A stretch of 64,000 nt of DNA, taken from assembly GCA_015039465.1 (NCBI GenBank), contig MU130497.1:1-64000 (forward strand), written 5' to 3'. The translations under genes were made by a program, and so were the position numbers. Positions 36,379 to 58,838 of this stretch are shown in pieces. Each line of letters begins with the position of its first letter. The stretch's first letter is position 1. This stretch comes from Phlegmacium glaucopus. Its lineage: Eukaryota; Basidiomycota; Agaricomycetes; Agaricales; Cortinariaceae. The notes under the pieces were generated by a model. The model saw nothing but the letters and a program-made list of their open reading frames with translations. It did no database searches and was not told the DNA's origin.

Positions 36379-37490
36379 ATGCTAACTCGTTCTAAAAAAT
36401 CCAAAACTCCATTACCAATACAAGAAAATATGTCCCATGAACACACCCCCACCAGGCAGACTCCCGTGCCTTTGATGAACCTCAGAGTACTACGGACGAA
36501 GTTGAGTCTCCATCTATTCCTTTCAATGAACTTGTTTCCAATTTGGCTGGCAGACTTAGAGAGCCTGAACCCTTCACGGGTAAGGACCCTAAGAAACTGA
36601 AAGCTTTTCTTTTCCAGTGTAGGCTCCATTTCCGGAGCTCTTCTGACACATTCCAAGATGACTCCAAGCAAGTAACTTTTGCTCTGTCCTATCTCCAGGA
36701 CATTGGTCAGGAATGGTTTGAACCTGGAATTTCCGGACTCACCAATGAACCTCTGTCTTGGCTTGAAGATTGGGACCTCTTCATGGATGAGCTCCAATCC
36801 AACTTTGGCCCTTTTGACAAATCCACCAACATAGAACACAAACTCATGACCCTCCATATGAAGGATGGCCAACGTATCTCTGAATACTTAGTCCGGTTCA
36901 ACTCTTTGGCAGTCCGCTGCTCTTGGGGCGAGTCTGCTCTAAGGTATAGGTTTTACAAAGGTTTACCTTCCCGACTCAAGGATGAAATTACCAAAGGTGA
37001 TGGCAAGCCTTGGACCATGGCCACGATGTATCAAAAAGCTCAAAATGCCAATGCTCAACACTGGGAATGTATGCAAGAATGTTCTTGGGAACCTGCTCTG
37101 CAGCAACACCAAAACCCTCCAAAGGGTCCTACTCCTTCTTCATCCTCCTCTGTACCCTCTTCCAACCCTTCTTCCAGTTCCGGAAAACAGTCTCAGCCTT
37201 CAGATCAAAAGTCCACTAAGCCTGCAGACTCCAGTAAGACTTCTTCCACTCCTCCAAAACCTAATCTAGATGGCAAGCTGGACTCGTGGGGTAGACTTAC
37301 CCAGCAAGAAAGGCAATGCCAGATGGATAATAACCTCTTTTTTGTGGCAAGGCTGGTCATTGTGTTCCTAACTGTAACCTAGCCAAGGCAAGCTCCGCTA
37401 AAGGCCAAGCCTCTACCATTTCTAATTCTGTTTCTGAGTCCATTCCAGCTAAGCCAAAGGACTCTGGTTTGGAGAAGAAAAAAGACTAAG
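36379..37490 (+). pseudogene. Gypsy Gag, degraded
   Basis: Gag of a Ty3/gypsy element. Reading begins MLTRSKKSKTPLPIQENMSH and contains a retrotransposon Gag domain (FTGKDPKKLKAFLFQCRLHF at about 36570-36630; LQDIGQEWFEPG; LMTLHMKDGQRISEYLVRFN at about 36842-36905). A serine/proline-rich linker precedes a zinc-knuckle region broken around 37,320-37,400 (CQMDNNLFFVARLVIVFL). Frame changes are needed near 36,470, so the gene is not intact. The minus-strand relative at 57,741-58,838 keeps the missing N-terminal part in a better state. Confidence 0.8.
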
Positions 37491-37599
37491 CAATTCACTG
37501 GACTCAGCACAGATGGTGAATTGCAAGAGTCCCTGTGCTGAACTTGTTGCAGTCCTAAATGCAATAATCTCTCCAGAAACCTGAGCAGTTTTTGTTTCT

Positions 37600-38010
37600 C
37601 TTCTTTGTCTTCAATTTCCAAATGTCAATTTTTTTGCTTTCATTGACAGTGGTTCCACTCACTGTTTCATGGATGAGCATTACGCGAAGTCCAATGATTT
37701 TCCTATTTTTCTGATTACTCTGATGATGCTCTGTCTTATTGATAGCTCATCTCTGGGCATGATTACCCATGCTACCATTGTTTCCGTTCAGTTCTCTTGT
37801 GGTTCCATCCACAAAATCCAGCTTTTACTAACCAAGCTGGATTCTGATTTTCCTGCTGTACTCAGGCTTGACTGGCTCACCCAACATAGTCCATTGATTG
37901 ACTGGGTCGATAGCAGTGTAACTTTCCAAGACCGTATAGTTGTCCTTCCAGTTCCTGTTTCTGTTTCCGCCAAGGCACCCATTCCGGTATCTGACATTAC
38001 CATGTCTGAT
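37600..38010 (+). pseudogene. Gypsy aspartic protease region
   Basis: The reading FAFIDSGSTH-type start is visible around 37,640-37,665 as a serine/threonine version (DSGSTHCFMDEHYAKS), followed by hydrophobic strands and LRLDWLTQHSPLIDWVDSSV (about 37860-37920). The DSG in place of the usual DTG/DSG active-site triad is acceptable for retropepsins. A solo LTR interrupts the polyprotein immediately after VSDITMSD. Confidence 0.65.
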
Positions 38011-38610
38011 TGTTAAGTTTAGAACAAAGGGAAAACGTCGGAGTAAAACGTCGGAGTAAAACCGGATTGGACAGAGTCTGATCGGAACAGAACCATGGAA
38101 CAGGAAAGGACTATAGCCTCAGCATGTGTGCTGTGCTACCCTAAACCTTCATGTCCTAATTTCGGAGTAAGAACGGAACGGAGTGGAACCGGAAGTTGCA
38201 GGAACTTAGAGAATGACTAGGAGGAGGAAACTAGGTTGATATTTGAACTAAGGGAAAACATACAAGTTTGAGTACTTTAAATATAAAAGGAATTGCAACC
38301 AAAATATAGAATATAAATATAAGTGCTGCGTTCTGCTCCCGGAAAAGGTCCTGCATTCTTGGGTGAATAATCCATGGCTGGTGTGCTGACTGATAGTGGG
38401 AAAGTGATGACAAAGGAATAGTTGTTATGACGAAGGTGTGGTAAGGGGTTTGGGATATTGTTGGAAGAGTCGGAATGATACGGAGAAGTCTCGGAGTCGG
38501 ACGTAGGAGGAGTAGAGTTGGAGACAAGGGAAAGTACTGGAACGGAGTACGTACTACTGGAAACAACTCCGACGGAGTCGGACCGGAGTAACGTGTGACG
38601 GAATGTAACA
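38011..38610 (-). mobile_element. Solo gypsy LTR with perfect target duplication
   Basis: A 600-bp LTR in minus orientation, TGTTAAG to GTAACA, sits within the polyprotein of the plus-strand element. It is flanked by perfect 5-bp repeats CTGAT (38006-38010 and 38611-38615). The polyprotein resumes right after it (SDTVSASLKVEIPSDTIPEP). Confidence 0.88.
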
Positions 38611-38840
38611 CTGATACAGTTTCCGCGAGTTTGAAGGTTGAAATACCTTCCGATACTATTCCGGAACCTCTTTCTGATATCCCGTTTGTTCTGAAACCAT
38701 TGACCACTCCTAAAATTTCCTTAGTGTCTAGTGCAGCTTTCATGAGGTCCATTTGTTCTGAAGGAGCCCAATGCTTTTCCATTTCTGTTGATGTACCTGC
38801 AGTGAGGCCCATTTGTTGTAAACCCACCAGACCGCTATAA
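38611..38840 (+). pseudogene. Gypsy polyprotein linker after the solo LTR
   Basis: The frame continues from the protease region (VEIPSDTIPEPLSDIPFVLK) up to VDVPAVRPICCKP. It then runs into the second LTR family on the minus strand. It is the spacer between protease and reverse transcriptase. Confidence 0.5.
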
Positions 38841-39430
38841 ATTGTTGTTTGTGTTGTTATAAAACACCAACCAGAGGGAACTGGACCAGACTTTAGGTCA
38901 GAATATCCCCCTGTGTTTGTTTAGGGAAGGTATAACCAGAGACTAGTAAGCACACTTGGTTAGAAGAGAGTAGAGGAGGATGAGGATGAAGATCTTGGAA
39001 GGTGAATGGGGTAGAGGACGAGGATGAGGATGAGCAAGAGAGAGTCTTCAGCAAGACTATAGCAATTGACAGTAGGGGACAGTAACAGATAAAAGGTTGA
39101 AAAAGCGAACATGAGGGAGGAATTCAACTGGAATTCCACTGAGATGATGACTGTAGGGGAGTAAGAATGAATTGAGGTGAACTACCTATCCTGGTACAAA
39201 AGAGCAGTATTTATACCCTAAGGATGAGGCTATGTAGAACAATAAAAAGAAAGAAGTACACGCTGTCAAAGGAAGAAAGATAAAGAGAGGACAGCTGCGA
39301 AAAGAAAAGAACAATGGAAAAGAAGAAGGAACAATAAAAAAATCTGTAAAGTGTCAAAGTGTGAGAGAAAAGAAAAGAAGGCAGTGTACATAGTCCAATA
39401 GCAAAAATATACCAACTCCATAGGCGTGTG
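38826..39430 (-). mobile_element. Second LTR family, minus copy
   Basis: Reverse-oriented copy of the sequence at 32340-34345, uninterrupted here. It contains the TATAAATACTGCTC motif (on the minus strand near 39,205-39,220). Ends are not precisely defined. Confidence 0.5.
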
Positions 39431-39921
39431 GTCATGTCAAAAATGTGAAAGGTCCTGAGTCAACACTTGAAAGGCGCAGCCTTGTTCCCGAGAAAACACT
39501 ACTTGCCCATGATCCCATGTCGCGCAGCCTTGATAACACTTGACACACTGCGAGAATAATCCTCTGCTGCTGATTCATCTGCAATTCCTGCTTAGTTGTG
39601 ATCCTCCTGGACTTCCTAAATTGTCATAAAGAGGGTGGGAAGGCTTCATGTACCACATGAATGATGGTTTTGGCAGTGAATGATAAGATAAGAGGTAGAT
39701 AAGGGAGGATAGGGGACTGAGTGAGATCCAAGAGCAAGGGATGGCAAGATAGATGGCTGAGGGGAAGACTTGTGGGTCCATAGCCACAACAACAATGACA
39801 AAGCCTTTTACATAATGGGAGATGTAGTTGATGTGTCCATAAAGGGGCTGTTCTTGAAATTATGGACCAAAGATACGATCAAATGCGAGCTGATGACTGA
39901 TGCGAATAGTAGATTGATTGC
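39431..39921. other. Unassigned repeat DNA
   Basis: Nothing coding is recognised. Protein-like readings are short. It lies between the second LTR family and the GGGATGTAAACACACC element, and is probably flanking or internal transposon DNA. Confidence 0.3.
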
Positions 39922-41490
39922 TGATAGACCCAGGAGACATCTAGGGATGTAAACACACCATTTTTGCGGTTTCACAACCTTCGCAGTATACTTGCAGTCA
40001 TCACCAACATTCACATTATCATTCGCAGTTGCCAGCTGTTCTCGCAATCTTTAAACACGACTCCAACAAAGGTCACTCAGGTGACTGTATTACTCATCAC
40101 CTTTATTTTTATCTTGTCTCCTTTTATTTGGCTCTTATCTCCTATGTTTCATTACCAAATTACCGGATCCATGTGACTCTGCTTTAACCCATATTTTACA
40201 TTCCTGTTTCACCTTTCTGCACTTAGCTATTGCTAGTTACTATATTATTAGCAGTAGCAAGTAGGGTAAGAGAGAACAGAGGAGAACAGACGAATTACCA
40301 CACTTTTGATCCCACCTTTGGAACGTCATGCTAAGCTACTCTTGCACTCCTTAAAAATCATCCTGCAGGCTTCGCTTTTTCTGTGCATTATCTCACACTT
40401 TAAAGTGAACCTTTGCACCTCATAAAACCTCACTATCACCTACTGAAGAGAACTACATCAACCCCACAAACTACATACTACTTGTGGTCTGTCCCCACCA
40501 CAGGTACATCATCGCTTTGTGGGATCACTAGCCAAGGGACAAATGGATGGTAGATGCTTAGGAGCATGTCGATAGTGTAAACGATGGAGAGCATAGTGTG
40601 AGACATTGAGAATATGATGAGCGATGAGGGTGATAATGTTGAATGCATGAGTTGTCGACCAGGAACACGATTCAGGGCCGCTTCCAAAATAGGTAAGTGA
40701 ATTCAAAGTCCACTTATTTTCATGATGGCGACTTTTAAGCTTTCTTCTCACACTACCAATCAGTATTGGTGCGCGATACCGCAAGTAGTACATAGTTCGT
40801 GAGGTTGATGTAGTTCTCTTCGGTAGGTGATAGTGAGGTTTTATGAGGTGCAAAGGTTCGCTTTAAAGTGTGAGATAATGCGCAGAAAAGCAAAGCCCGC
40901 AGGATGATTTTGAAGGAGTGCAAGAGTAGCTTAGTACAATGTTCTAAAGGTGGGATCAAAACTGTGGTAATTTGTCCATTCTCCTCTGTTGCTTCCCCTT
41001 ACTTGCTACTGCTAATAATATAGTAACTAGCAAATAGCTAAGTGTGGAAAGGTGAAACAGAAATGTAAAATGTGGGTTAAAGTGGAGTCACATGGATCCA
41101 GTAATTTGGTAATGAAACATAGGAGATAAGAGCCAAATAAAAGGAGACAAGATAAAAATAAAGGTGATGAGTAATACAGTCACCTGAGTGACCTTTGTTG
41201 GAGTTGTGTTTAAAGATTGCAAGAACAGCTGGTAACTGTGAATGATAATGTGAATGTTGGTGATGACTGCAAGTATCTGCAATGGTCTGCGAGTATTCTG
41301 TGATGATCTGTGAGTATGTGCAATGATCTGCAATGATCTGCAATGATCTGCAATGACCTGCAATGACCTGCAATGACCTGCAATGATCTGCAAGTATCTG
41401 CAATGATATGTGAGCATCTGCAAGTATACTGCAAAGGTTGTGAAACCGTGAAAATGGTGTGTTTACATCCCTAGATGTCTCCTGGGTCCT
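39922..41490. mobile_element. TIR element with subterminal ATCTGCAATG repeats, inserted before RT
   Basis: The ends are long inverted repeats: TAGACCCAGGAGACATCTA then GGGATGTAAACACACC at the left, and the inverse at the right (41440-41490). The right end carries an array of about a dozen 10-11 bp words of the ATCTGCAATG kind (41270-41430). A fragment of the gypsy integrase junction lies inside at about 40416-40515. No transposase is seen. The element separates the protease linker from the reverse transcriptase of the gypsy element. Confidence 0.6.
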
Positions 41491-43215
41491 ATCACTATTC
41501 ATGATCCGGTTGAGGCTGCTAGCTGTTCCACTGCAGCCTCCACCACATCTTCCAATTCCGACTTGGAAGGTGTTCTGGAAATATATCATGAATTTTCAGA
41601 CATCTTTTCAAAGGGTAAAGCTAACACTCTAGCAGCTCATTGAGAGTATGACTTAAAAATTGAAATTGATGAGTCTGCAAAACCCCCTTTGGGTCCAATT
41701 TATCCACTTTCTGAATCCAAGGTGGGAACACTCTGAGAATTCATCGATGAGCACCTAAACATGGGTTTCATTCACCCTTCAAAGTCTCCTTTCGGAGCAC
41801 CTGTCCTGTTTATCAAGAAGGACAGGTCCCTCTGGCTTTGCATCAATTTCTGAAAACTCAATGCCATCACTCGGAAAGACAAGTATCCTTTACCTCTTGT
41901 TTCTGATTAACTTGATGCTCCCTGCAAATCCGGAATTTTTACTAAAATTGACTTAAAGCATGCCTACCATCTCATCCAGATCGCTGCTGGAGACGAGTGG
42001 AAGACTGCTTTCTGTACCTGCTATGGCTCCTTTGAATGGCTTGTCATGCCATTTGGACTCACCAATGCCCCTGGCGGTTTTCAAAGGTTCCTTAACACTA
42101 TTTTTGCTGACCTTTTAGATGTGTTCATAATCATCTATCTGGACAACATCCTCATTTTCTCCATTAACAAAAAAGGTCACATCAAACATGTCTCCAAAGT
42201 CCTCTGACAGCTTCGAGATAATAATCTCTTCACCAATGGTAAGAAATGTGTTTTCCACTCCGATTCCGTCAAGTACCTGGGTCACATGATTGGTACTGAT
42301 GGCCTTTCAATGGATCCGGCAAAAGTCCAAGTCATTCAAGACTGGCCAGAACCTCAGAAAGTCAAAGATGTCCAGTCCTTCCTTGGTTTTGCTAACTTTT
42401 ACAGGTGTTTCATCCACAACTACTCCAATATTGTTGTTCTGTTGACTCGTCGTCTTACCCAGAAAAATATTCCGTGGGTTGTTGATGACAGTTGCCGCCT
42501 TGCTTTTGAGACTCTCAGGGAGGCTTTTATTTTGGCTCCGGTGTTGACACATTGGAAGCCTAACTGTCCTATCATTGTGGAAACTGACACTTCTGATTAC
42601 ACTTTAGCAGCTATCCTTTCCATCCGTGATTCTGATGGAGAAATCCATCCTGTCGCATATTGTTCCCGTACCTTTTCTGGTGCAGAACTGAATTATGACA
42701 TTCACGATAAGGAACTCCTTGCCATTTTTGAAGCTTTCAAAGCTTGGCATCACTACCTTGAAGGTGCTAGTTTCCCAATTGATGTGGTTACTGACCATAA
42801 AAATCTAGAGTATTTTGCAACCACCAAAATCTTATTCCAGCATCAAGCCCAGTGGTCGGAGTACCTGTCCGCATTCAACATGGTTATTAGATTTCACCCA
42901 GGCCGTCTTGGAACAAAGCCAGACATGCTGACTTGTCATTCTGACCTCTATCTAAAGGAGGGAGGGAAAGATTATGGTGAAGTCAATCCACATAATTTTA
43001 AACCTATCTTTTCTTCCAAACAACTTTCCACTTCTCTCCGAGCTACTTCATTACTTCCCACTGTACTCTGTGGTATCTTCACCATGGATGTTGAAGAGCT
43101 CAACAAGGGGATTCTTTCCGCTCTTTCCATGGATCCCCTTGCACAGTCCTACTTATTAGATATCAATAATCCAAAGTATGTTAGATGGTCAAAGGACACT
43201 TCTGGATTCATTGAT
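41491..43215 (+). pseudogene. Gypsy reverse transcriptase / RNase H, copy 1
   Basis: The RT domain runs from HEFSDIFSKGKANTLAAH (about 41590) through [40 protein letters not shown] and the active site IYLDNILIF (about 42130), then YLGHMIGTDGLSMDPAKV. RNase H follows, with PIIVETDTSDYTLAAILS (about 42570) and PVAYCSRTFSGAELNYDIHD. In-frame stops occur at 41641, 41734, 41851, 41908 and 42204; four of the five are TGA where arginine CGA is expected. The catalytic YLDD has become YLDN. The frame is broken after GFIDRTQETS by the next insertion. This copy is dead. Confidence 0.85.
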
Positions 43216-44060
43216 AGGACCCAGGAGACGTCTAGGGATGTAAACACACCATTTTTGCAGTTTCACAACCTTTGCAGTATACTTGCAGATGCTTGCGGAT
43301 GCTCACATATCATTGCGGATACTTGCAGATCATCGCAGGTCATCACAGATCATCACAGATCATCACACATCATCACACATCATCACACATACTCACAGAT
43401 CATTGCAGAATACTTGCAGATCACTGTACTTTACACTCTCCCACCTACTCCGTGCAGAGTCCATGTGGAGTCCGAGCTGTCCGAGCTGTCCGCGTGGACT
43501 CTTAGCATTCCACACAGATTTGTTAGGAATTAGTTAGGGTTGGGTTAAGGTTAGTGTTAAGGTTAGGGTTAGAATTAGGATAGGTATATATATTACAAAA
43601 GTTTTAAATTTTAAGGTTTAGGGTGTAAATTTTGTGCGGACAGCTCGGACTCTGCGCGGATTAGGTGGGGGAGAGTAAAGACCTCGCAGATCATCGCAGA
43701 TACTTGCAGTCATCACCAACATTTGCATTATCATTCGCAGTTGCCAGCTGTTCTCGCAATCATTAAACACGACTCCAACGAAGGTCACTCAGGTGACTGT
43801 ATTACTCATCACCTTTATTTTTATCTTGTCTCCTTTTATTTGGCTCTTATCTCCTATGTTTCATTACCAAATTACCGGATCCATGTGACTCCGCTTTAAC
43901 CCGCATTTTACATTTCTGTTTCACCTTTCCACACTTAGCTATTTGCTAGTTATTATATTATTAGCAGTAGCAAGGGGAAGCAATAGAACAGAGGAGAACG
44001 GACAAATTACCACAGTTTTGATCCCACCTTTGGAATGTCGTACTAAGCTACACTTGCACC
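43216..44060 (+). mobile_element. TIR-type insertion after RNase H, copy 1, with nested telomere-like element
   Basis: It begins TAGGACCCAGGAGACGTCTA, GGGATGTAAACACACC, with an array of ATCATCGCAG-type words (43,270-43,420). Nested at 43429-43680 is a 252-bp element with inverted ends (TTTACACTCTCCCACC and its near inverse). That nested element holds GGTTAGGGTTAG-like repeats at 43,530-43,580. Confidence 0.55.
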
Positions 44061-44087
44061 AAAAAAAAAAAAAAAAAAAAAAAAAAG
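44061..44087. other. 27-A tract at the direct-repeat junction
   Basis: A pure run of A separates the two 2.9 kb copies. It interrupts a sequence (CACTTGCACCCC) that continues normally in copy 2. Its size is close to the 25-A tract at 56837. It may be a sequencing-gap placeholder rather than real DNA. Confidence 0.55.
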
Positions 44088-47000
44088 ACAAGATAAAAAT
44101 AAAGGTGATGAGTAATACAGTCACCTGAGTGACCTTTGTTGGAGTTGTGTTTAAAGATTGCAAGAACAGCTGGTAACTGTGAATGATAATGTGAATGTTG
44201 GTGATGACTGCAAGTATCTGCAATGGTCTGCGAGTATTCTGTGATGATCTGTGAGTATGTGCAATGATCTGCAATGATCTGCAATGATCTGCAATGACCT
44301 GCAATGACCTGCAATGACCTGCAATGATCTGCAAGTATCTGCAATGATATGTGAGCATCTGCAAGTATACTGCAAAGGTTGTGAAACCGTGAAAATGGTG
44401 TGTTTACATCCCTAGATGTCTCCTGGGTCCTATCACTATTCATGATCCGGTTGAGGCTGCTAGCTGTTCCACTGCAGCCTCCACCACATCTTCCAATTCC
44501 GACTTGGAAGGTGTTCTGGAAATATATCATGAATTTTCAGACATCTTTTCAAAGGGTAAAGCTAACACTCTAGCAGCTCATTGAGAGTATGACTTAAAAA
44601 TTGAAATTGATGAGTCTGCAAAACCCCCTTTGGGTCCAATTTATCCACTTTCTGAATCCAAGGTGGGAACACTCTGAGAATTCATCGATGAGCACCTAAA
44701 CATGGGTTTCATTCACCCTTCAAAGTCTCCTTTCGGAGCACCTGTCCTGTTTATCAAGAAGGACAGGTCCCTCTGGCTTTGCATCAATTTCTGAAAACTC
44801 AATGCCATCACTCGGAAAGACAAGTATCCTTTACCTCTTGTTTCTGATTAACTTGATGCTCCCTGCAAATCCGGAATTTTTACTAAAATTGACTTAAAGC
44901 ATGCCTACCATCTCATCCAGATCGCTGCTGGAGACGAGTGGAAGACTGCTTTCTGTACCTGCTATGGCTCCTTTGAATGGCTTGTCATGCCATTTGGACT
45001 CACCAATGCCCCTGGCGGTTTTCAAAGGTTCCTTAACACTATTTTTGCTGACCTTTTAGATGTGTTCATAATCATCTATCTGGACAACATCCTCATTTTC
45101 TCCATTAACAAAAAAGGTCACATCAAACATGTCTCCAAAGTCCTCTGACAGCTTCGAGATAATAATCTCTTCACCAATGGTAAGAAATGTGTTTTCCACT
45201 CCGATTCCGTCAAGTACCTGGGTCACATGATTGGTACTGATGGCCTTTCAATGGATCCGGCAAAAGTCCAAGTCATTCAAGACTGGCCAGAACCTCAGAA
45301 AGTCAAAGATGTCCAGTCCTTCCTTGGTTTTGCTAACTTTTACAGGTGTTTCATCCACAACTACTCCAATATTGTTGTTCTGTTGACTCGTCGTCTTACC
45401 CAGAAAAATATTCCGTGGGTTGTTGATGACAGTTGCCGCCTTGCTTTTGAGACTCTCAGGGAGGCTTTTATTTTGGCTCCGGTGTTGACACATTGGAAGC
45501 CTAACTGTCCTATCATTGTGGAAACTGACACTTCTGATTACACTTTAGCAGCTATCCTTTCCATCCGTGATTCTGATGGAGAAATCCATCCTGTCGCATA
45601 TTGTTCCCGTACCTTTTCTGGTGCAGAACTGAATTATGACATTCACGATAAGGAACTCCTTGCCATTTTTGAAGCTTTCAAAGCTTGGCATCACTACCTT
45701 GAAGGTGCTAGTTTCCCAATTGATGTGGTTACTGACCATAAAAATCTAGAGTATTTTGCAACCACCAAAATCTTATTCCAGCATCAAGCCCAGTGGTCGG
45801 AGTACCTGTCCGCATTCAACATGGTTATTAGATTTCACCCAGGCCGTCTTGGAACAAAGCCAGACATGCTGACTTGTCATTCTGACCTCTATCTAAAGGA
45901 GGGAGGGAAAGATTATGGTGAAGTCAATCCACATAATTTTAAACCTATCTTTTCTTCCAAACAACTTTCCACTTCTCTCCGAGCTACTTCATTACTTCCC
46001 ACTGTACTCTGTGGTATCTTCACCATGGATGTTGAAGAGCTCAACAAGGGGATTCTTTCCGCTCTTTCCATGGATCCCCTTGCACAGTCCTACTTATTAG
46101 ATATCAATAATCCAAAGTATGTTAGATGGTCAAAGGACACTTCTGGATTCATTGATAGGACCCAGGAGACGTCTAGGGATGTAAACACACCATTTTTGCA
46201 GTTTCACAACCTTTGCAGTATACTTGCAGATGCTTGCGGATGCTCACATATCATTGCGGATACTTGCAGATCATCGCAGGTCATCACAGATCATCACAGA
46301 TCATCACACATCATCACACATCATCACACATACTCACAGATCATTGCAGAATACTTGCAGATCACTGTACTTTACACTCTCCCACCTACTCCGTGCAGAG
46401 TCCATGTGGAGTCCGAGCTGTCCGAGCTGTCCGCGTGGACTCTTAGCATTCCACACAGATTTGTTAGGAATTAGTTAGGGTTGGGTTAAGGTTAGTGTTA
46501 AGGTTAGGGTTAGAATTAGGATAGGTATATATATTACAAAAGTTTTAAATTTTAAGGTTTAGGGTGTAAATTTTGTGCGGACAGCTCGGACTCTGCGCGG
46601 ATTAGGTGGGGGAGAGTAAAGACCTCGCAGATCATCGCAGATACTTGCAGTCATCACCAACATTTGCATTATCATTCGCAGTTGCCAGCTGTTCTCGCAA
46701 TCATTAAACACGACTCCAACGAAGGTCACTCAGGTGACTGTATTACTCATCACCTTTATTTTTATCTTGTCTCCTTTTATTTGGCTCTTATCTCCTATGT
46801 TTCATTACCAAATTACCGGATCCATGTGACTCCACTTTAACCCGCATTTTACATTTCTGTTTCACCTTTCCACACTTAGCTATTTGCTAGTTATTAGCAG
46901 TAGCAAGTAAGGGGAAGCAATAGAACAGAGGAGAACGGACAAATTACCACAGTTTTGATCCCACCTTTGGAACATCGTACTAAGCTACACTTGCACCCCT
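44088..47000. repeat. Direct repeat copy 2 (about 2.9 kb)
   Basis: This is the second copy of 41147-44060, offset by 2,941 bp. It carries the same stop codons in RT and the same nested elements. Unlike copy 1 it runs on into the integrase part of the gypsy element. Confidence 0.85.
44432..46156 (+). pseudogene. Gypsy reverse transcriptase / RNase H, copy 2
   Basis: It has the same sequence as copy 1, including every in-frame stop and the YLDN active site (about 45,071). It is followed by the same insertion (46157-47110), including the 252-bp nested element at 46370-46621. It is adjacent to, and in line with, the integrase region, so this is the copy that belongs to the element body. Confidence 0.85.
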
Positions 47001-47109
47001 TCAAAATCATCCTGCAAACTTCGCTTTTTCTGCACATTGTCTCGCACTTTAAAGCGAACCTTCGCACCTCATAAAACCTCACTATCACCTACTGAAGAGA
47101 ACTACATCA

Positions 47110-48500
47110 ACCCCACGAACTATGTACTACTTGCGGTCTGTCCTCACTGCAGGTACATCATCGTCCAGATCAATCAACGGATCTATGTTCCAGATTCCGG
47201 AGATCTTCATCTCTGTGTCCTTCATTATTATCATGACCATCCTGTCTCCGGACATTTTGGTGTCAATAGGACTCTTGCAGTTATCCGTCGAGAGTATACT
47301 TGGCCCAGTATTCATGTTTTTGTCACTGACTATTGTAGGACTTGCACCACCTGTTCTCAGTCCAAAGCCAAACATCATAAACCATATGGCTTACTCCAAC
47401 AACTCCCTGTTCCATCCTGTCCCTGGGACTCCATCTCCATGGATTTCATTGAACACCTTCCAGACTCCAAAGGTTTCACTGTGGTCTTGGTCATAGTAGA
47501 CCATTTCACGAAACAATCTATTTTCATCCCCACATACAACACCATCACTTCCACTCAACCTGCTGGACTATTTGTCATCCACATGTTTTCCAAGCACGGT
47601 GTTCTGTCCCATGTAACCTCCAATCGTGGTTCCGAGTTTGTATCCCACTTCTTCAGATCCCTCGGAAAAGCCCTTGACATGAAGTTGCACTTCACCTCCG
47701 GATACCACCCAGAAGGTGACAGACAAACAGAACATGTCAACCAGACCTTGGAACAATACATCCATATCTACTGCAATTATCAGCAAGACAACTGGAGTTC
47801 ACTTCTCCTGTTAGCGGAATTCTCCTACAACAATACTCCGAGTGCCACTACCGGTGTATCTCCATTCTTTGCCAACAAAGGTTACAATCCGGCTATCACT
47901 ATCCATCTGGAGTACAACTTCATTTCCTCCCGTGCTCAAAAGTACATTATGGACCTTAACAAACTCCTTGAGGAACTCCAAAAAGCTATCCTTACCTCCC
48001 AGGAACAATACCAATGTTCCACAAACAAGTGTCGGATTCCTCCTCCGGACTTCAAGGTTGGAGATTGAGCCTTTGTCAGAGCACAATTCTTCCATATGAC
48101 CAGACCTTCAAAGAAGCTTTCCAAGAAGTATCTTGGTCTGTATGAGATTATTGCTCAGGCAGGTCCTTTGTCCTGGACCCTCCATCTTCCCAACAACTTG
48201 CGTGCCATCCATCCCGTTTTCCATGTTTCCATGCTAGAGCCCTCTGTTCCGAACACTATTCCGGATTGTACACAACCTCTGCCTCCTCCGGTCTTCATTG
48301 ATGGAGAACAGGAGTTCGAGGTCTCCAAAATTTTGGACTCTAAATTGGACAACAGACGGCGTTTATGCAAACTTCTGTACCTAGTCAAGTGGTCTGGCTA
48401 TGAAGGTACTGATGAAGAAACTTCCTGGTTGCCAGCTAATGAATTAGGACACATGTCTGAATTTGTTGCTGATTTCCACCAGAGCTACCTGGACCTCTTC
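47110..48500 (+). pseudogene. Gypsy integrase with chromodomain
   Basis: The integrase starts with the zinc-binding HHCC region (YYHDHPVSGHFGVNRTLAVI ... CRTCTTCSQSKAKHHKPYG, about 47230-47395). The catalytic core reads SISMDFIEHLPDSKGFTVVL, then HVTSNRGSEFVSHFFRSL (SNRG where SDRG is expected), and HPEGDRQTEHVNQTLEQYI with its glutamate. A single TGA at 48066-48068 breaks the frame at FKVGD. Beyond it is AFVRAQFFHMTRPSKKLSKK, then a chromodomain EFEVSKILDSKLDNRRRLCK ... LVKWSGYEGTDEETSWLPAN (about 48310-48440). The chromodomain would steer integration to marked chromatin. No 3' LTR follows. Confidence 0.87.
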
Positions 48501-52029: not shown

Positions 52030-52974
52030 GATTTTATTTGTACAAAGTTTTTGTCTCTCGTAATGCTCTACAGTGCAGTCAAAAATGCTATCTAGTTTGA
52101 AAGATTCCAGTCACCTGCGTTTTGTACTGCCACCCTGAGTCGAACCTGGCACCGGCAACAGCAGCTGCCTGCGCCCGACTGCCGGTTTCAGATCCACCCC
52201 CGGTGTGATTACATCGGCTGGTCAACCGGCATCTATACCACTGGCACTGATAGACCGGCACATACATCGGCTGCAGACACCGGCATGCAGATTGGCATGG
52301 GCACACCGGCATACCCATCGGCTGTGTACACCGGCATACACACCGGCATGGATACACCGGCATACACCATACACATCGGCTGCATACGCCGGCATACACA
52401 CCGGCATAGGTACACCGGCATACACCATACACATCAGCTGCATACGCCAGCATACACATCGGCATGGACACACTGGCACTCATACACCGGTACACAACAC
52501 ACTGGCGCTGGTGCCCCAGGGTGCACTAGGCACCAGCACTCTTATTCCTGGCATCATGGCCGGCACCTCACATCAGCACCATCAGGGCCCTACAATGTTC
52601 TCTGGCCTCTACATGTGGGGAATGCCGGTCCTCGGAAATGTGCCTCTCGGAGGTGTCCTGCGATTTGATCAGGCCGGGAAATGTATTTCTATCATTAGTT
52701 TAGATCACCTTAGCCCCCAAGGTACATATACATGTGCATATACCAGCCCTAGGCCCTTCCTGTGGCCTAGGGATGAGAGCGGAGCCGGCAGCGGCATACA
52801 CAGTCGGCATTCTGAAGGCATTCCTTGAGTCCGTGGAGCACGGCACACTGTGTATTTCTATATATGGTAGGCGATATTCCCGGATTCGAGGTGTTCCGGG
52901 AATGCGTACCATACGGCACACTGTGGCCGTTCCAGGAATCATACCATACGACACACTGTAGTGTCCTTACCTGG
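52030..52974. repeat. Terminal-type repeat copy 1 with CACCGGCATACA minisatellite
   Basis: This block recurs at 56862-57734. The right half (52507-52974) recurs in the same orientation at 57272-57734 with only a few changes. The left half (52034-52506) recurs at 56862-57271, but in reversed base order without complement. The left half contains about ten degenerate units of CACCGGCATACA (52255-52500). The pair encloses the Gag-like and KDZ genes, so it may be a long terminal repeat. Confidence 0.65.
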
Positions 52975-54234
52975 CCAGCGGAGCCAATGTTGAACGAAAT
53001 GCAGACAATTCTGCCCCCAAGGGCCTTATCAACCCACTTGCCTTGCTCATCGATGACCAGTCGTTTGGCAGGTCCTTGGTGTTCTCTGTGGGAATGGCCT
53101 TTGCCACAGAGATAGCACCAAAAGCTGGATGATTGTTGAGAGGTGCGAAAGGAGGACGATTGAGAATGGAATCCCCCTCGGTTAGAATAGAATGTGCTTC
53201 CCCCTTGAAACCCCCACCCTCTGCCTCGCAAACCCACCACTGTTGCTATGAGACCTGCCCACTACAAATGGCAGGGAGCTCCCTGGCTGCCTGAGTTTCT
53301 CCAGGATTGTCGGTACAAGGTTCCTCATCTTGTATTGGTGATACAGCTGCTCATTGAATATCAAGCCATATGAATCATCTCTCCTTCCGACCCAGGACCC
53401 ATACGATTCGATGATATACCCCCTATAAGAGGGCCAATCCTGTGTGTAGTCGGGCCTTGTTGCAATCACGCTAAAGAATTCCGCAAACATATCTGCGCAG
53501 TCCCTAGCTCAGGCACCACCAGGACCAATGTTGTCACCCATTGCCAGGTATTTCCGCATTCCTCATATGAAGTTCTCACAAATTTCGGTGAAATCATCGG
53601 TCGTAATGTAATGGTCCTTCCCTGCTGACATTGCCTTCTGCTTCATGCTCACTACTCCCTTTTCATTCCACGTCATTTGGGTGTCGACAGATTCAGTGGA
53701 CTGAGAGGCGCTCAGGCATGCCTTGTGAGTACACATAGCCAGCGGTATGTAATTCCGGAAACCTGTCTTCAGCTCCGTAATTATGGAGATGGGCAGATCG
53801 CTCGTCGCATTTGTTATTGCATGTGAAAAATATCACCTTGTAGGTGCCGACCTGTCTCCAGTCGACCTGGGATTTGCATTTCCCGATTCCAGAAATCTGG
53901 TGAAGGCTGCCATCATCTCGGGCGTCCATGTGACTCGAGGTGCATCTGGCGGTGCATCAGATGACAAGGAAGGGGCTGGCGCATGCCTAGTTTGCTCATG
54001 GGCATCATAAGACTGGTGGTTGAACGGTAAGCTATCTGAGACCAGGGAACTCCGCTTCCTATCATGCGTGTAAGGGATGCCGTGCATCTTCGCAGCATAA
54101 GAACAATCTCCATCCCCTCGTGCAGCAGTCTGTGGGCCTGGGTTGGTGGTATTTTGTGGCCCGTGACCCCAATCAGTCCGTCGACCTCCAATGTCACTGT
54201 GTGAAGGCAAGGCTGTTTGAGGGCCCGTTCGCAT
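52960..54234 (-). pseudogene. Gag-like protein of a basidiomycete retroelement
   Basis: In minus-strand order: a disordered start with HEQTRHAPAPSLSSDAPPDA, then WTPEMMAAFTRFLESGNANP (about 53880-53940), then YIPLAMCTHKACLSASQSTE (about 53690-53750), a region around KDHYITTDDFTEICENFI broken by in-frame stops near 53,505 and 53,565, then MFAEFFSVIATRPDYTQDWP (about 53430-53490), YHQYKMRNLVPTILEKLRQP, and a cysteine/histidine region WCYLCGKGHSHREHQGPA (about 53050-53110). This layout matches Gag-like ORFs seen in many Agaricomycete repeat elements. The stops mean it is probably inactive. The family assignment is from memory and moderate. Confidence 0.5.
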
Positions 54235-54577: not shown

Positions 54578-55033
54578 TTACAATGGTGATTTGTAAGCAT
54601 TATTGAGTAAGCTAAATCTCCGATCGGCTCTAACGGCCAGTTGCTGCCACATTGCCTGTTTGCGTTTGGCATATGCGGTGACCCCGGGGGTACTGCACGA
54701 ATGCATACCCCACTTTTGACGATTGTAGGCAAAAAATGCCACAGTCCACTGCATCTCATATCTAGTTAATGTAACCTCCTCCTGCCATCTCATGAGTTGG
54801 GCTCAAGCACGAAGCCAATGGACTCGTTGAACTATTGAAAAGTTAATAACGATCAAGTATAATATGACAATGACTTGCATTCCAAGACACTGTCATCGGC
54901 ACCGGCAGTCAAGTCAGCAGCTAAGCCTAGGCGATGACCTCCTGCTGTTTGCCAAATCCAGGAGAGTTTTAGTTGTGTGGATCCTGGTTCATTGGGATTG
55001 ATAATTGCCGTGCTGGCCTTCACATGGACGACT
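54578..55033 (-). pseudogene. KDZ transposase, C-terminal part in normal orientation
   Basis: Kyakuja-Dileera-Zisupton (KDZ) transposases are cut-and-paste enzymes. On the minus strand this reads VHVKASTAIINPNEPGSTQL (from 55,033), LSWIWQTAGGHR, then after an intron QRVHWLRA, a TGA in place of arginine, AQLMRWQEEVTLTRYEMQWT, VAFFAYNRQKWGMHS and AYAKRKQAMWQQLAVRAD, with the stop near 54,578. This is the conserved C-terminal helical region of the family. The remainder of the gene should lie to the right on the same strand, but there the DNA is written in reversed order (next entry). Confidence 0.72.
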
Positions 55034-56836
55034 TACCTACCTACTAGGATACGCCGTACACGGAATTATAGGTAGTGTAAGTGTCAAGGTCGACTAAGTC
55101 TCTCTGTCTACCCACATATTTACACACAAACAACGGCTACCGTTGAAGTTCCGGCTAGTACAGGCCGTCTTCTTACGTCGTCCGTTACACACCGATAGTC
55201 TCCCGTCACCCTACTAAGGTTTCTTACTCCTTATACGTAGCAAAGACTTTAGGCGTTAACTTTCCGAGTACCATACACGTAGTACTCTACCGGCCACGGC
55301 CGTAGTTACGAGTAAATAAAATAAATAAACTTTCTTCCGTGGGACACTTTTGTGTAAGTCCCGGTATTACTTGAGGAACGTCCGTAGGTTTCGTACGCTA
55401 CAGTGTCCACACCATCCGTAACGAACACGGGCCGTGCCGACAATACGTGGGTTACGGGAGCATCTGGAGAAGTTTCCCCTTGTCGTTTTCTTACATCTAA
55501 AACGGAAGGATTTTCGAGATTGCAGTTGGGCTCACCTCGGTCTCGTTCCCCATGAGGACTAAATACTATAACGGACGGTCATAAAGCAAGTAAATGTTCT
55601 GGCCTAGCCGTCGGTGGAGGGTAAGCCGGACCTTCAGCTTCGTCGGTAGCCTGAGAAGGTACAGGTACGTGTGTTTCTGCTCACAAAGAAGGCCATACGG
55701 TGGAGGAAATAGGGTCCCCGGCCACAACAACGGCCACTTTAGAACCTCAGAGAAACCAGGAGAGAGTTAAGGTAAAGTGGGTGACTTACGCACCCCCTGC
55801 CGTTGGGATCGTGTGGCCCGTCTCTACAATCTACTGGTGCGTCGGTTAAGGTTGGTGTTCTTTTACGAGCCGTACCAGTGTTGTGATACGTTTAGCTTGT
55901 CGTGTCGTTAGTTATACGAACTTGTGCGAGTTAGCATGATGGTTTTAGATTGTCAACTCCGCCCTGTCTGTCGTCACCTCTTTACCTCCTCACTATAACT
56001 CTCTCGCCTCCTCTTTGCGGGGGACCTGTAATGTCGTTACCTGTATATGCCACGCTTCAACTTGTGCGTACGTGGCCGTAAGCCGTACGACGGCCGGCCG
56101 TAGTGGCCGCCTGGAGACCCAATGACCTACCTCAATAGAGACCGACAGCTCCTCTTTGTCACTCGTTAAGAAGAGGGTAATTGTACTCGTAAAGCTACTT
56201 GTTGACAGTCCGAGGTTTAGGTTCGTTTCCAGGTTGTTAACCCGGCTCGGTGGCCTTCATGCCTGGCCGTCTGGTAGCTTTTCCTAGCCCTCCCTGATTG
56301 ACGGGAGTACGAAGTCGAGTTCGTTCGCGTCGTTCACCGTCTTCAGTATCTTTAATTACCGGTTGTTCAGTAACTGTGACTGAACACCCTGTAAACCCTA
56401 CTTTAGTAGTTACTTGGTCACGGACGGTCACTACTACGACGAGTTGCCGGACCTGGCCGTAGCCGTGACCGTGGTAGACTGTAGGTGGCCAGTGGATAGC
56501 CGGGATTAGGTTAACTCCTAGTTCATGAGTGTGATGGCAGGTTACCGTTGTGATCGCGTCACATAGCACTTGAACTCACAAGGGTAGCGTAACGTCAACG
56601 ACTTGTGGTGAACTTGGTTTAAACTTTGGAGTAACGACTCTTTTCGAAGGTCAAAAGAGTACAGTAAGCGTAAAGCGGTGCATTTCCACAATGCTGTGCT
56701 AGGTCCCGTCGTCAATTCTTTGATTTATACGTCTAACGGGATGTGACGGCTCACATAAGGGCTACGGCCCGTGCACAGAACCGGGATCCACGGCTCGGCC
56801 GCTGAGTCCGGGCCGACTCTGACGAGGCCGGACTGC
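55034..56836. other. KDZ transposase body written in reversed base order
   Basis: No normal frame codes here. Taking the plain complement of the given strand and reading left to right gives a KDZ transposase with introns: RDRWVYKCVFVADGNFKADH (about 55,100-55,160), DVTGVVGIACARHGC (55,398-55,442), YDIACQYF (55,563-55,586), GLFHVHAHKDECFFRYATSF (about 55,650-55,710), FIPGAGVVAGE, LWSSLNSISPTE, ATLAHRAEMLDDHAANSNHK (55,801-55,860). It ends ARLRLLRPD at 56,836. That end joins in sense to VHVKAST at 55,033. The reading is nearly free of stops outside plausible introns. So base order is reversed but bases are not complemented. Confidence 0.85.
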
Positions 56837-56861
56837 AAAAAAAAAAAAAAAAAAAAAAAAA
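56837..56861. other. Exactly 25 A: probable gap placeholder
   Basis: A run of 25 A lies between the two reversed segments. On its left the reversed KDZ gene stops in mid-reading; on its right begins the reversed copy of the 52,030-52,506 repeat. A padded assembly gap is the simplest reading. Confidence 0.6.
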
Positions 56862-57271
56862 CGGTCACACAGCGCATGGCCACATACTCACGGCCACACA
56901 GGTACGGCTACACATACGGCCGCATACGTCGACTACACATACCACATACGGCTTAATGGATACGGCCACACATACGGCCGCATACGTCGGCTACACATAC
57001 CACATACGGCCACATAGGTACGGCCACACATACGGCCACATAGGTACGGCCACACATACGGCCACCATATCTACGGCCAACTGGTCGACTACATTAGTGT
57101 GGCCCCCACCTAGACTTTGACCGTCAGCCCGCGTCCGTCGACGACAACGGCCACGGTCCAAGCTGAGTCCCACCGCCATGTTTTGCGTCCACTGACCTTA
57201 GAAAGTTTGATCTATCGTAAAAGCTGACGTGACATCTCGTAATGCTCTCTGTTTTTGAAACATGTTTATTT
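56862..57271. repeat. Mirror-image (reversed, not complemented) copy of 52034-52506
   Basis: Reading this segment from right to left, base by base, reproduces 52034-52506 with a few substitutions and fewer minisatellite units. For example, positions 57,181-57,240 read backwards match 52,068-52,127 at nearly every base. The reverse complement does not match. The segment is followed directly at 57,272 by the correctly oriented continuation of the same repeat. Confidence 0.9.
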
Positions 57272-57734
57272 GCTGGTGCCCCAGGGTGCACTAGGCACCA
57301 GCACTCTTATTCCTGGCATCATGGCCGGCACCTCACATCAGCACCATCAGGGCCCTACAATGTTCTCTGGCCTCTACATGTGGGGAATGCCGGTCCTCGG
57401 AAATGTGCCTCTCGGAGGTGTCCTGCGATTTGATCAGGCTGGGAAATGTATTTCTATCATTAGTTTAGATCACCTTAGCCCCCAAGGTACATATACATGT
57501 GCATATACCAGCCCTAGGCCCTTCCTGTGGCCTAGGGATGAGACCGGAGCCGGCAGCGGCATACACAGTCGGCATTCTGAAGGCATTCCTTGAGTCCGTG
57601 GAGCACGGCACACTGTGTATTTCTATATATGGTAGGCGATATTCCTGGATTCGAGGTGTTCCGGGAATGCATACCATACGGCACACTGTGGCCGTTCCGG
57701 GAATCGTACCATACAACACACTGTAGTGTCCTTA
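57272..57734. repeat. Terminal-type repeat copy 2 (normal orientation part)
   Basis: Same orientation as 52507-52974 and almost identical (for example GAGACCGG for GAGAGCGG). Both copies end at GTGTCCTTACCTG, after which they diverge: copy 1 enters the Gag-like gene and copy 2 enters a gypsy gag. Confidence 0.8.
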
Positions 57735-58838
57735 CCTGTGGCCTTTAGCGGAGCTTGCCTTGGCAAGGTTACAGTCAGGAACACGATGTCCCAGCTTGCC
57801 ACAGAAAAGAAAGAGTTTATTATCCATCCGGCGTTGCCTTTCTTGCTGGGTAAGTCTACCCCGCGAGTCCAGCTTGCCTTCTAGATTAGGTTTAGGAGGA
57901 GCAGAAGTGGAAGCCTTACCGGAGTCTGCGGGCTTAGAAGACTTTTGATCTGAAGGCCAAGACTGTTTACCGGAACTGGAAGAAGGATTGGAAGAAGAGG
58001 GTACAGAGGAGGATGAAGAAGGAGTGGAACCCTTTGGAGGGTTTTGGCGTTGCTATGGAGCAGGTTCCTGAGAACATTCTTGCATATGTTCCCAGTAGCA
58101 AGCATCGGCATTTTGAGCTTTTTGACACATCACGGTTAAGGACCGGGGCTTGCCATCACCTTTAGTAATTTCATCCTTGATTCGGGAAGGTAAACCTTCG
58201 TAAAACCAATACCTCAGAGCAGGCTCACCCCAAGTACAGCAGACTGCCAAGGAGTTGAACCGGACTAAGTAATTGGAGATACATTGGCCGTCCTTCATTT
58301 GGAGATTGGTGAGTTCGTGTTCTACGTCGGCGGACTTGTCGTAAGGACCAAAGTTGGACTGAAGTTCGCTGATGAAGAGACCCCAATTTTCAAGCCAAGA
58401 CGGAGGCTCGTTGGTGAGACCGGAAATTCCAGGTTCAAACCATTCCTGAGCAACGTCCTGGAGATAGGACAAAGCAAATGTTACTCGCTTGGAGTCATCT
58501 CGGAATGTGTTGGAAGAGCTCCGGAAATAGAGCCTGCACTAGAAAAGAAAAGCTTTTAGTTTCTTAGGATCCTTACCCATGAAGGGTTCGGGCTCTCTAA
58601 GTCTGCCAGCTGAATCAGACTTGGCTGAAGATTTCCCGAGGGAATTTAAAGCAGAAACGAGTTCATTGATATGAATAGATGAAGACTCAACTTCGTCCAT
58701 AGCCATCCGAGGTTCATTGATAAGACTAGCCTCTTCGACTGCATCGGGAATTGGAGTCTGCCTAGTAGGAGTATTTTCATGGGACATGTTTTGTTGTATT
58801 GGTAATTGAGTTTTGGAAGTTTTGGAGCGAGTTAGCAT
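57735..58838 (-). pseudogene. Gypsy Gag, minus-strand copy
   Basis: The reading starts MLTRSKTSKTQLPIQQNMSH near 58,838, with an intact N-terminal part (EPRMAMDEVESSSIHINELV) that the plus copy has lost. The retrotransposon Gag domain runs through EPEPFMGKDPKKLKAFLF, a TAG in place of glutamine near 58,556, then LQDVAQEWFEPG and LQMKDGQCISNYLVRFN. It ends in the zinc-knuckle region at the junction with the repeat at 57,735. No protease or RT follows, so this is a truncated element. Confidence 0.8.

Follow-up and report, generated by a model that had tools for sequence, protein, structure and literature searches.

Can a stretch of chromosome be written in reversed base order without being complemented, and, if it is, does such text reflect the DNA of the organism or the way in which its genome was assembled? 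The question is raised by a locus of the basidiomycete Phlegmacium glaucopus, located in the first 64,000 nucleotides of contig MU130497.1 (assembly GCA_015039465.1), the stretch of DNA analyzed here and referred to as the window. An earlier note, made by reading the sequence alone, had claimed that two segments on either side of a 25-A tract are each reversed in place, and had deemed an assembly, gap-closing, or file-handling fault the likeliest source. According to our analysis, about 2.2 kb of the window are indeed written backwards without complementing, which is almost certainly an error of gap-filling software rather than a novel form of DNA. The features of the locus are collected in Table 1.

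Table 1. Features around the mirrored text in the window, with the evidence on which each assignment is based
Feature	Position	Strand	Evidence
Copy of segment 2 in normal writing	52033..52506	.	8 genome matches, including itself
Left contig end, in normal writing, belonging to the same KDZ-type element; expected to be continued by the mirrored segment	54510..55025	.	Matches on C128 (96%) and C78 (95%) that reach exactly to 55025
Mirrored segment 1 (reversed, uncomplemented); its reverse carries a minus-strand KDZ transposase piece	55026..56836	.	PF18758 and genome matches
25-A run, most likely a rewritten 25-N gap marker	56837..56861	+	Genome-wide one-strand excess
Mirrored segment 2 (reversed, uncomplemented)	56862..57271	.	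Reverse matches 52033-52506 (84%, 548 bits)
Right contig start, written normally; direct repeat of 52507-52984	57272..57754	.	97.5% identity between copies

RESULTS

Segment 2 is a mirror copy of a sequence written normally in the window

Read backwards, segment 2 aligns with positions 52033 to 52506 in the same left-to-right sense, with 84% identity over 474 columns (BLAST; 548 bits, E = 5e-156). Its 410 bases are set against 474, so that gaps must account for no fewer than 64 of the 76 non-identical columns, which leaves room for 12 substitutions at the most; the match with few changes claimed by the earlier note, which set its start at 52034, is therefore a fair description except for absent repeat units, and a tandem-repeat stretch is present in the segment. 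When the whole window was compared by BLAST with its own reversed, uncomplemented text, in mirror and complement-only form, the sole matches joined 56862-57271 with 52033-52506, all in the same sense, and none was found on the other strand. Segment 2 is therefore a mirror copy of 52033-52506. The normally written copy has its best other genome matches on C128 (96%) and C78 (94%). As written, segment 2 had no genome match on either strand except itself, in a search that skipped very common words. This agrees with the previous claim that its reverse complement is without a match, and an ordinary inversion is rejected on these grounds.

Reversed segment 1 carries part of a KDZ transposase

The longest open stretch in segment 1 as written is 112 amino acids, and the five longest stretches scanned gave no Pfam match to any family, which is in keeping with its earlier description as noncoding in six frames. 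The reversed segment opens stretches of 200 and 167 amino acids. No Pfam match was found for the 200-amino-acid piece, while the 167-amino-acid piece matches the KDZ transposase family PF18758 with 121.7 bits, against a curated cut-off of 26.6 (E = 4.7e-35). At E ≤ 0.001, a protein search with the latter gave 848 matches, led by a 95% identical protein of Phlegmacium glaucopus itself. For a gene of the window, searched likewise, the best match is an unnamed protein with 85% identity; the named relatives found with the two queries are Agaricales. The transposase proposed from the sequence is thus present, but its reading is divided between frames 1 and 2, and a single uninterrupted open reading frame (ORF) was not found in the reversed segment; introns, decay, or long-read errors may be the cause. 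The reversed segment resembles the KDZ (Kyakuja-Dileera-Zisupton) transposons in its domain piece and in belonging to a family of many copies in the genome, and differs from them in its frame-split reading and in the lack of Pfam matches among the five longest stretches of the text as written.

Across the genome (60.5 Mb, 259 contigs), reversed segment 1 has at least 39 matches on 21 contigs, many of them diverged, and segment 1 as written has at least 7, itself included. All seven of the as-written matches found lie in blocks abutting N runs or runs of 25 or 26 A. An ordinary inversion is rejected here as well, since the text as written matches gap-edge blocks only and the reversed, uncomplemented text matches normal copies. 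Searched in reversed form, as had been proposed, segment 1 thus found KDZ proteins and segment 2 found 52033-52506, and the contrary outcome, in which neither match appears, was not seen.

Each segment is reversed in place

The start of segment 1 was refined by comparison with other copies. A copy of the mirrored text on C120 begins at the position corresponding to 55026, not 55034, which makes the segment eight bases longer than previously described, and on C128 the reverse of 56836 comes immediately after the normal flank, whose last position is 55025. When the left flank was joined to reversed segment 1, this test string aligned continuously over the join in 10 other places (C78, C224, C209, C128, C41, C228, C198, C164, C227, and C247). 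None of the 17 loci that were compared spans the join as written at 55025; they are a non-random sample, since they had been retrieved by searching with the segment in written or in reversed form (L007 was left out). On the other side, reversed segment 2 together with the right contig aligns unbroken with the second copy in the window across 52506/52507. Since both joins are unbroken after reversal, segments 1 and 2 are each reversed in place, as the earlier note had it. Its further claim that the reversed reading continues into the normal minus-strand KDZ end agrees with the 10 places listed above, with the junction at 55025 instead of 55,033.

The mirrored text can also be recognized without homology, by a k-mer mirror statistic trained on the other blocks of the window and applied to 400-bp windows with K from 3 to 6. 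The statistic is negative in all 14 of the 400-bp windows tested inside segments 1 and 2, while the 586 windows outside have means of +8.7 to +10.8, with 7 to 11% of them negative. At each K the values of the weakest windows inside the segments fall among the lowest of those outside; the strongest reach -24 to -27 (K = 3 to 5), against a lowest outside value of -7 to -9. The K = 6 model was noisier, and K = 5 was chosen for the flank tests at other loci.

Runs of exactly 25 A occur on one strand only, with a single exception

The tract between the segments, reported as 25 A, is exactly of this length. Throughout the genome, the plus strand has 157 runs of exactly 25 A and the minus strand has 1; for exactly 24 A the numbers are 0 and 1, respectively. 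Overlapping 24-mers of A, counted over all contigs, number 1,125 versus 209. Real poly-A is expected to be about balanced over the strands and to have no preferred length. The exact 25-A runs have therefore most likely arisen from gap markers of 25 N that were rewritten as A. The bias between plus and minus strands in poly-A 24-mers could be used in other assemblies as a rapid sign that N has been converted to A.

Another run, of 26 A, lies at 44061-44086 in the window and has the marker length of 25 plus one adjoining A. At this run meet the two copies of a 2.9-kb direct duplication of part of a long terminal repeat (LTR) retrotransposon: the right contig start, 44086-46997, recurs at 41145-44060 with 99.6% identity. 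LTR-retrotransposon pieces, with Pfam matches to gag, RNase H, and integrase and with a Ty3 capsid model just below the cut-off, extend over 36543-48068; we take them to be Gypsy/Ty3. By the k-mer test at K = 5, the left flank of the run is not mirrored. The tandem duplication is probably false and due to an unmerged gap extension, and it fits what such an extension would leave.

Mirrored flanks recur at other loci

The earlier note had proposed looking for mirrored text across the assembly, and such text does recur, beside 25-A runs, among the first 30 of the 157 exact 25-A loci taken in contig order, and beside N gaps. Judged against a held-out 1% k-mer null at K = 5, 14 of the 30 loci have a mirrored flank (15 of 60 flanks), and at 11 of the 30 the statistic falls below -20, the lowest of 1,390 null values being -12.3. 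A laxer null, drawn from the model's own training sequence, flags 18 of the 30, and we prefer the held-out figure. No mirrored flank was detected against the held-out null at the other 16 runs, so the fault is not universal at 25-A runs.

The longest open stretches of the flagged flanks were compared in both readings, using one flank each from 15 of the 18 loci flagged under the laxer null. The reversed reading has the longer stretch in 13 flanks, an equal one in 1, and a shorter one in 1 (at L049 the ORF as written is longer than the reversed ORF). When the longest ORFs from 10 of these loci were scanned against Pfam, two reversed flanks matched ankyrin repeats (E = 6.8e-48) and tetratricopeptide (TPR) repeats (E = 2.5e-56); these loci, L039 and L064 (C5 near 283889 and C41 near 711822), lie beside 25-A runs. 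The other 8 of the 10 reversed-flank ORFs gave no Pfam match, and none of the 10 as-written flank ORFs reached a curated cut-off, those of the ankyrin and TPR flanks included. Since these repeats appear in reversed flanks, mirroring affects more than transposons.

DISCUSSION

Origin of the mirrored text

We are all but certain that the locus is an assembly artefact, in which a gap in a KDZ element was probably filled in part by reversed long-read extensions around 25 N that would later have become A. The one-strand 25-A runs, the mirrored text at gaps, and the joins support the fault suspected by the earlier note. Starting from what is observed, namely, in-place reversal, recurrence beside gaps, and 25-A runs on one strand, the following course of events can be proposed. 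A scaffold gap inside the repeat-rich KDZ element would have been partly filled by long-read extensions from both contig ends. The two extensions, left unmerged, would have had a minimal gap of 25 N placed between them, both would have entered the sequence in reversed base order and uncomplemented, and at a later stage the 25 N would have been written as A. We infer that the gap filler was PBJelly or a similar tool, that the fault lay in the way it treats the strand of an extension, and that the change from N to A belongs to some further step.

Several published descriptions bear on this proposal. Excerpts of the PBJelly paper (English et al. 2012, PMC3504050) describe gaps of 25 or more N, the extension of flanks into unclosed gaps, and "overfilled" gaps. 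The likeness to our locus is in the 25-N threshold and in long-read extensions of contig ends that remain unjoined, with N left between them; the excerpted description mentions neither extensions written backwards nor gaps that read A, nor 25 N as the marker of an overfilled gap. The mouse lemur genome paper, likewise in excerpt, reports that PBJelly extends sequence into gaps from one or both ends (PMC5689209), and ordinary use of the tool appears in excerpts of this paper and of PMC6191289. A PBJelly utility has a default minimum gap of 25, according to an excerpt of PMC6240028. In an excerpt from a large mycorrhizal study, hybrid assemblies of the Joint Genome Institute (JGI), made for other mycorrhizal fungi, were processed with ALLPATHS-LG and then PBJelly (PMC7550596). 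Among the excerpted literature that was searched on gap filling and assembly, no documented reversal bug of this kind was found.

An origin of the mirror in a software or file step other than long-read gap filling, e.g., a polishing or submission script that reverses text at gaps, is deemed unlikely. It draws some support from the fact that longer N gaps stay N whereas 25-base gaps read A, a difference that counts against our preferred explanation and points to at least one further faulty step, and from the fact that no tool is named for the Phlegmacium glaucopus assembly in the sources used here. Against it, the mirrored blocks are up to about 2 kb long and lie between normal sequence and the gap run at the loci traced, and one unmirrored case duplicates the far contig, which fits read-based extension.

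A physical mirroring of the DNA within the organism, through a process that breaks strand polarity, is extremely improbable, even if the text is truly reversed and the same signature is found at other loci. All seven as-written copies of segment 1 found adjoin assembly gaps, the 25-A runs are one-stranded, and we know of no polymerase or recombinase that can reverse the order of bases in a strand and leave them uncomplemented; we reject this explanation on the one-strand runs and the gap association. Chance, low complexity, or the misreading of ordinary inverted or mirror repeats as a reversal, for which the tandem-repeat stretch in segment 2 and the overlap of the weakest inside k-mer windows with the lowest outside ones might be cited, has a probability next to nil and is refuted by the 548-bit mirror match, by a KDZ match present in the reversed reading only, and by the corrected join found in 10 other places.

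Implications for this and other assemblies

With reversed gap extension as the preferred reading, the 14 mirrored loci among 30, extended to the 157 exact 25-A runs, suggest by extrapolation only that some tens of 25-A gaps are affected in the genome, besides those at longer N gaps. Mirrored text may also be present in other assemblies that were produced by similar pipelines. It is conceivable, if somewhat doubtful, that a recurrent and apparently undocumented fault leaves kilobase-long mirrored stretches beside gaps in at least two public hybrid assemblies; if so, such text would miss its true relatives in alignment, and a simple k-mer mirror test would find it. What is useful in this work is a simple test by which mirrored text next to gaps can be recognized. 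The finding is a warning about data quality: it supports no biological meaning and says nothing about the polarity of DNA in the organism. Mirrored text should fail to align to reads or to relatives, and it makes false unique sequence and broken genes.
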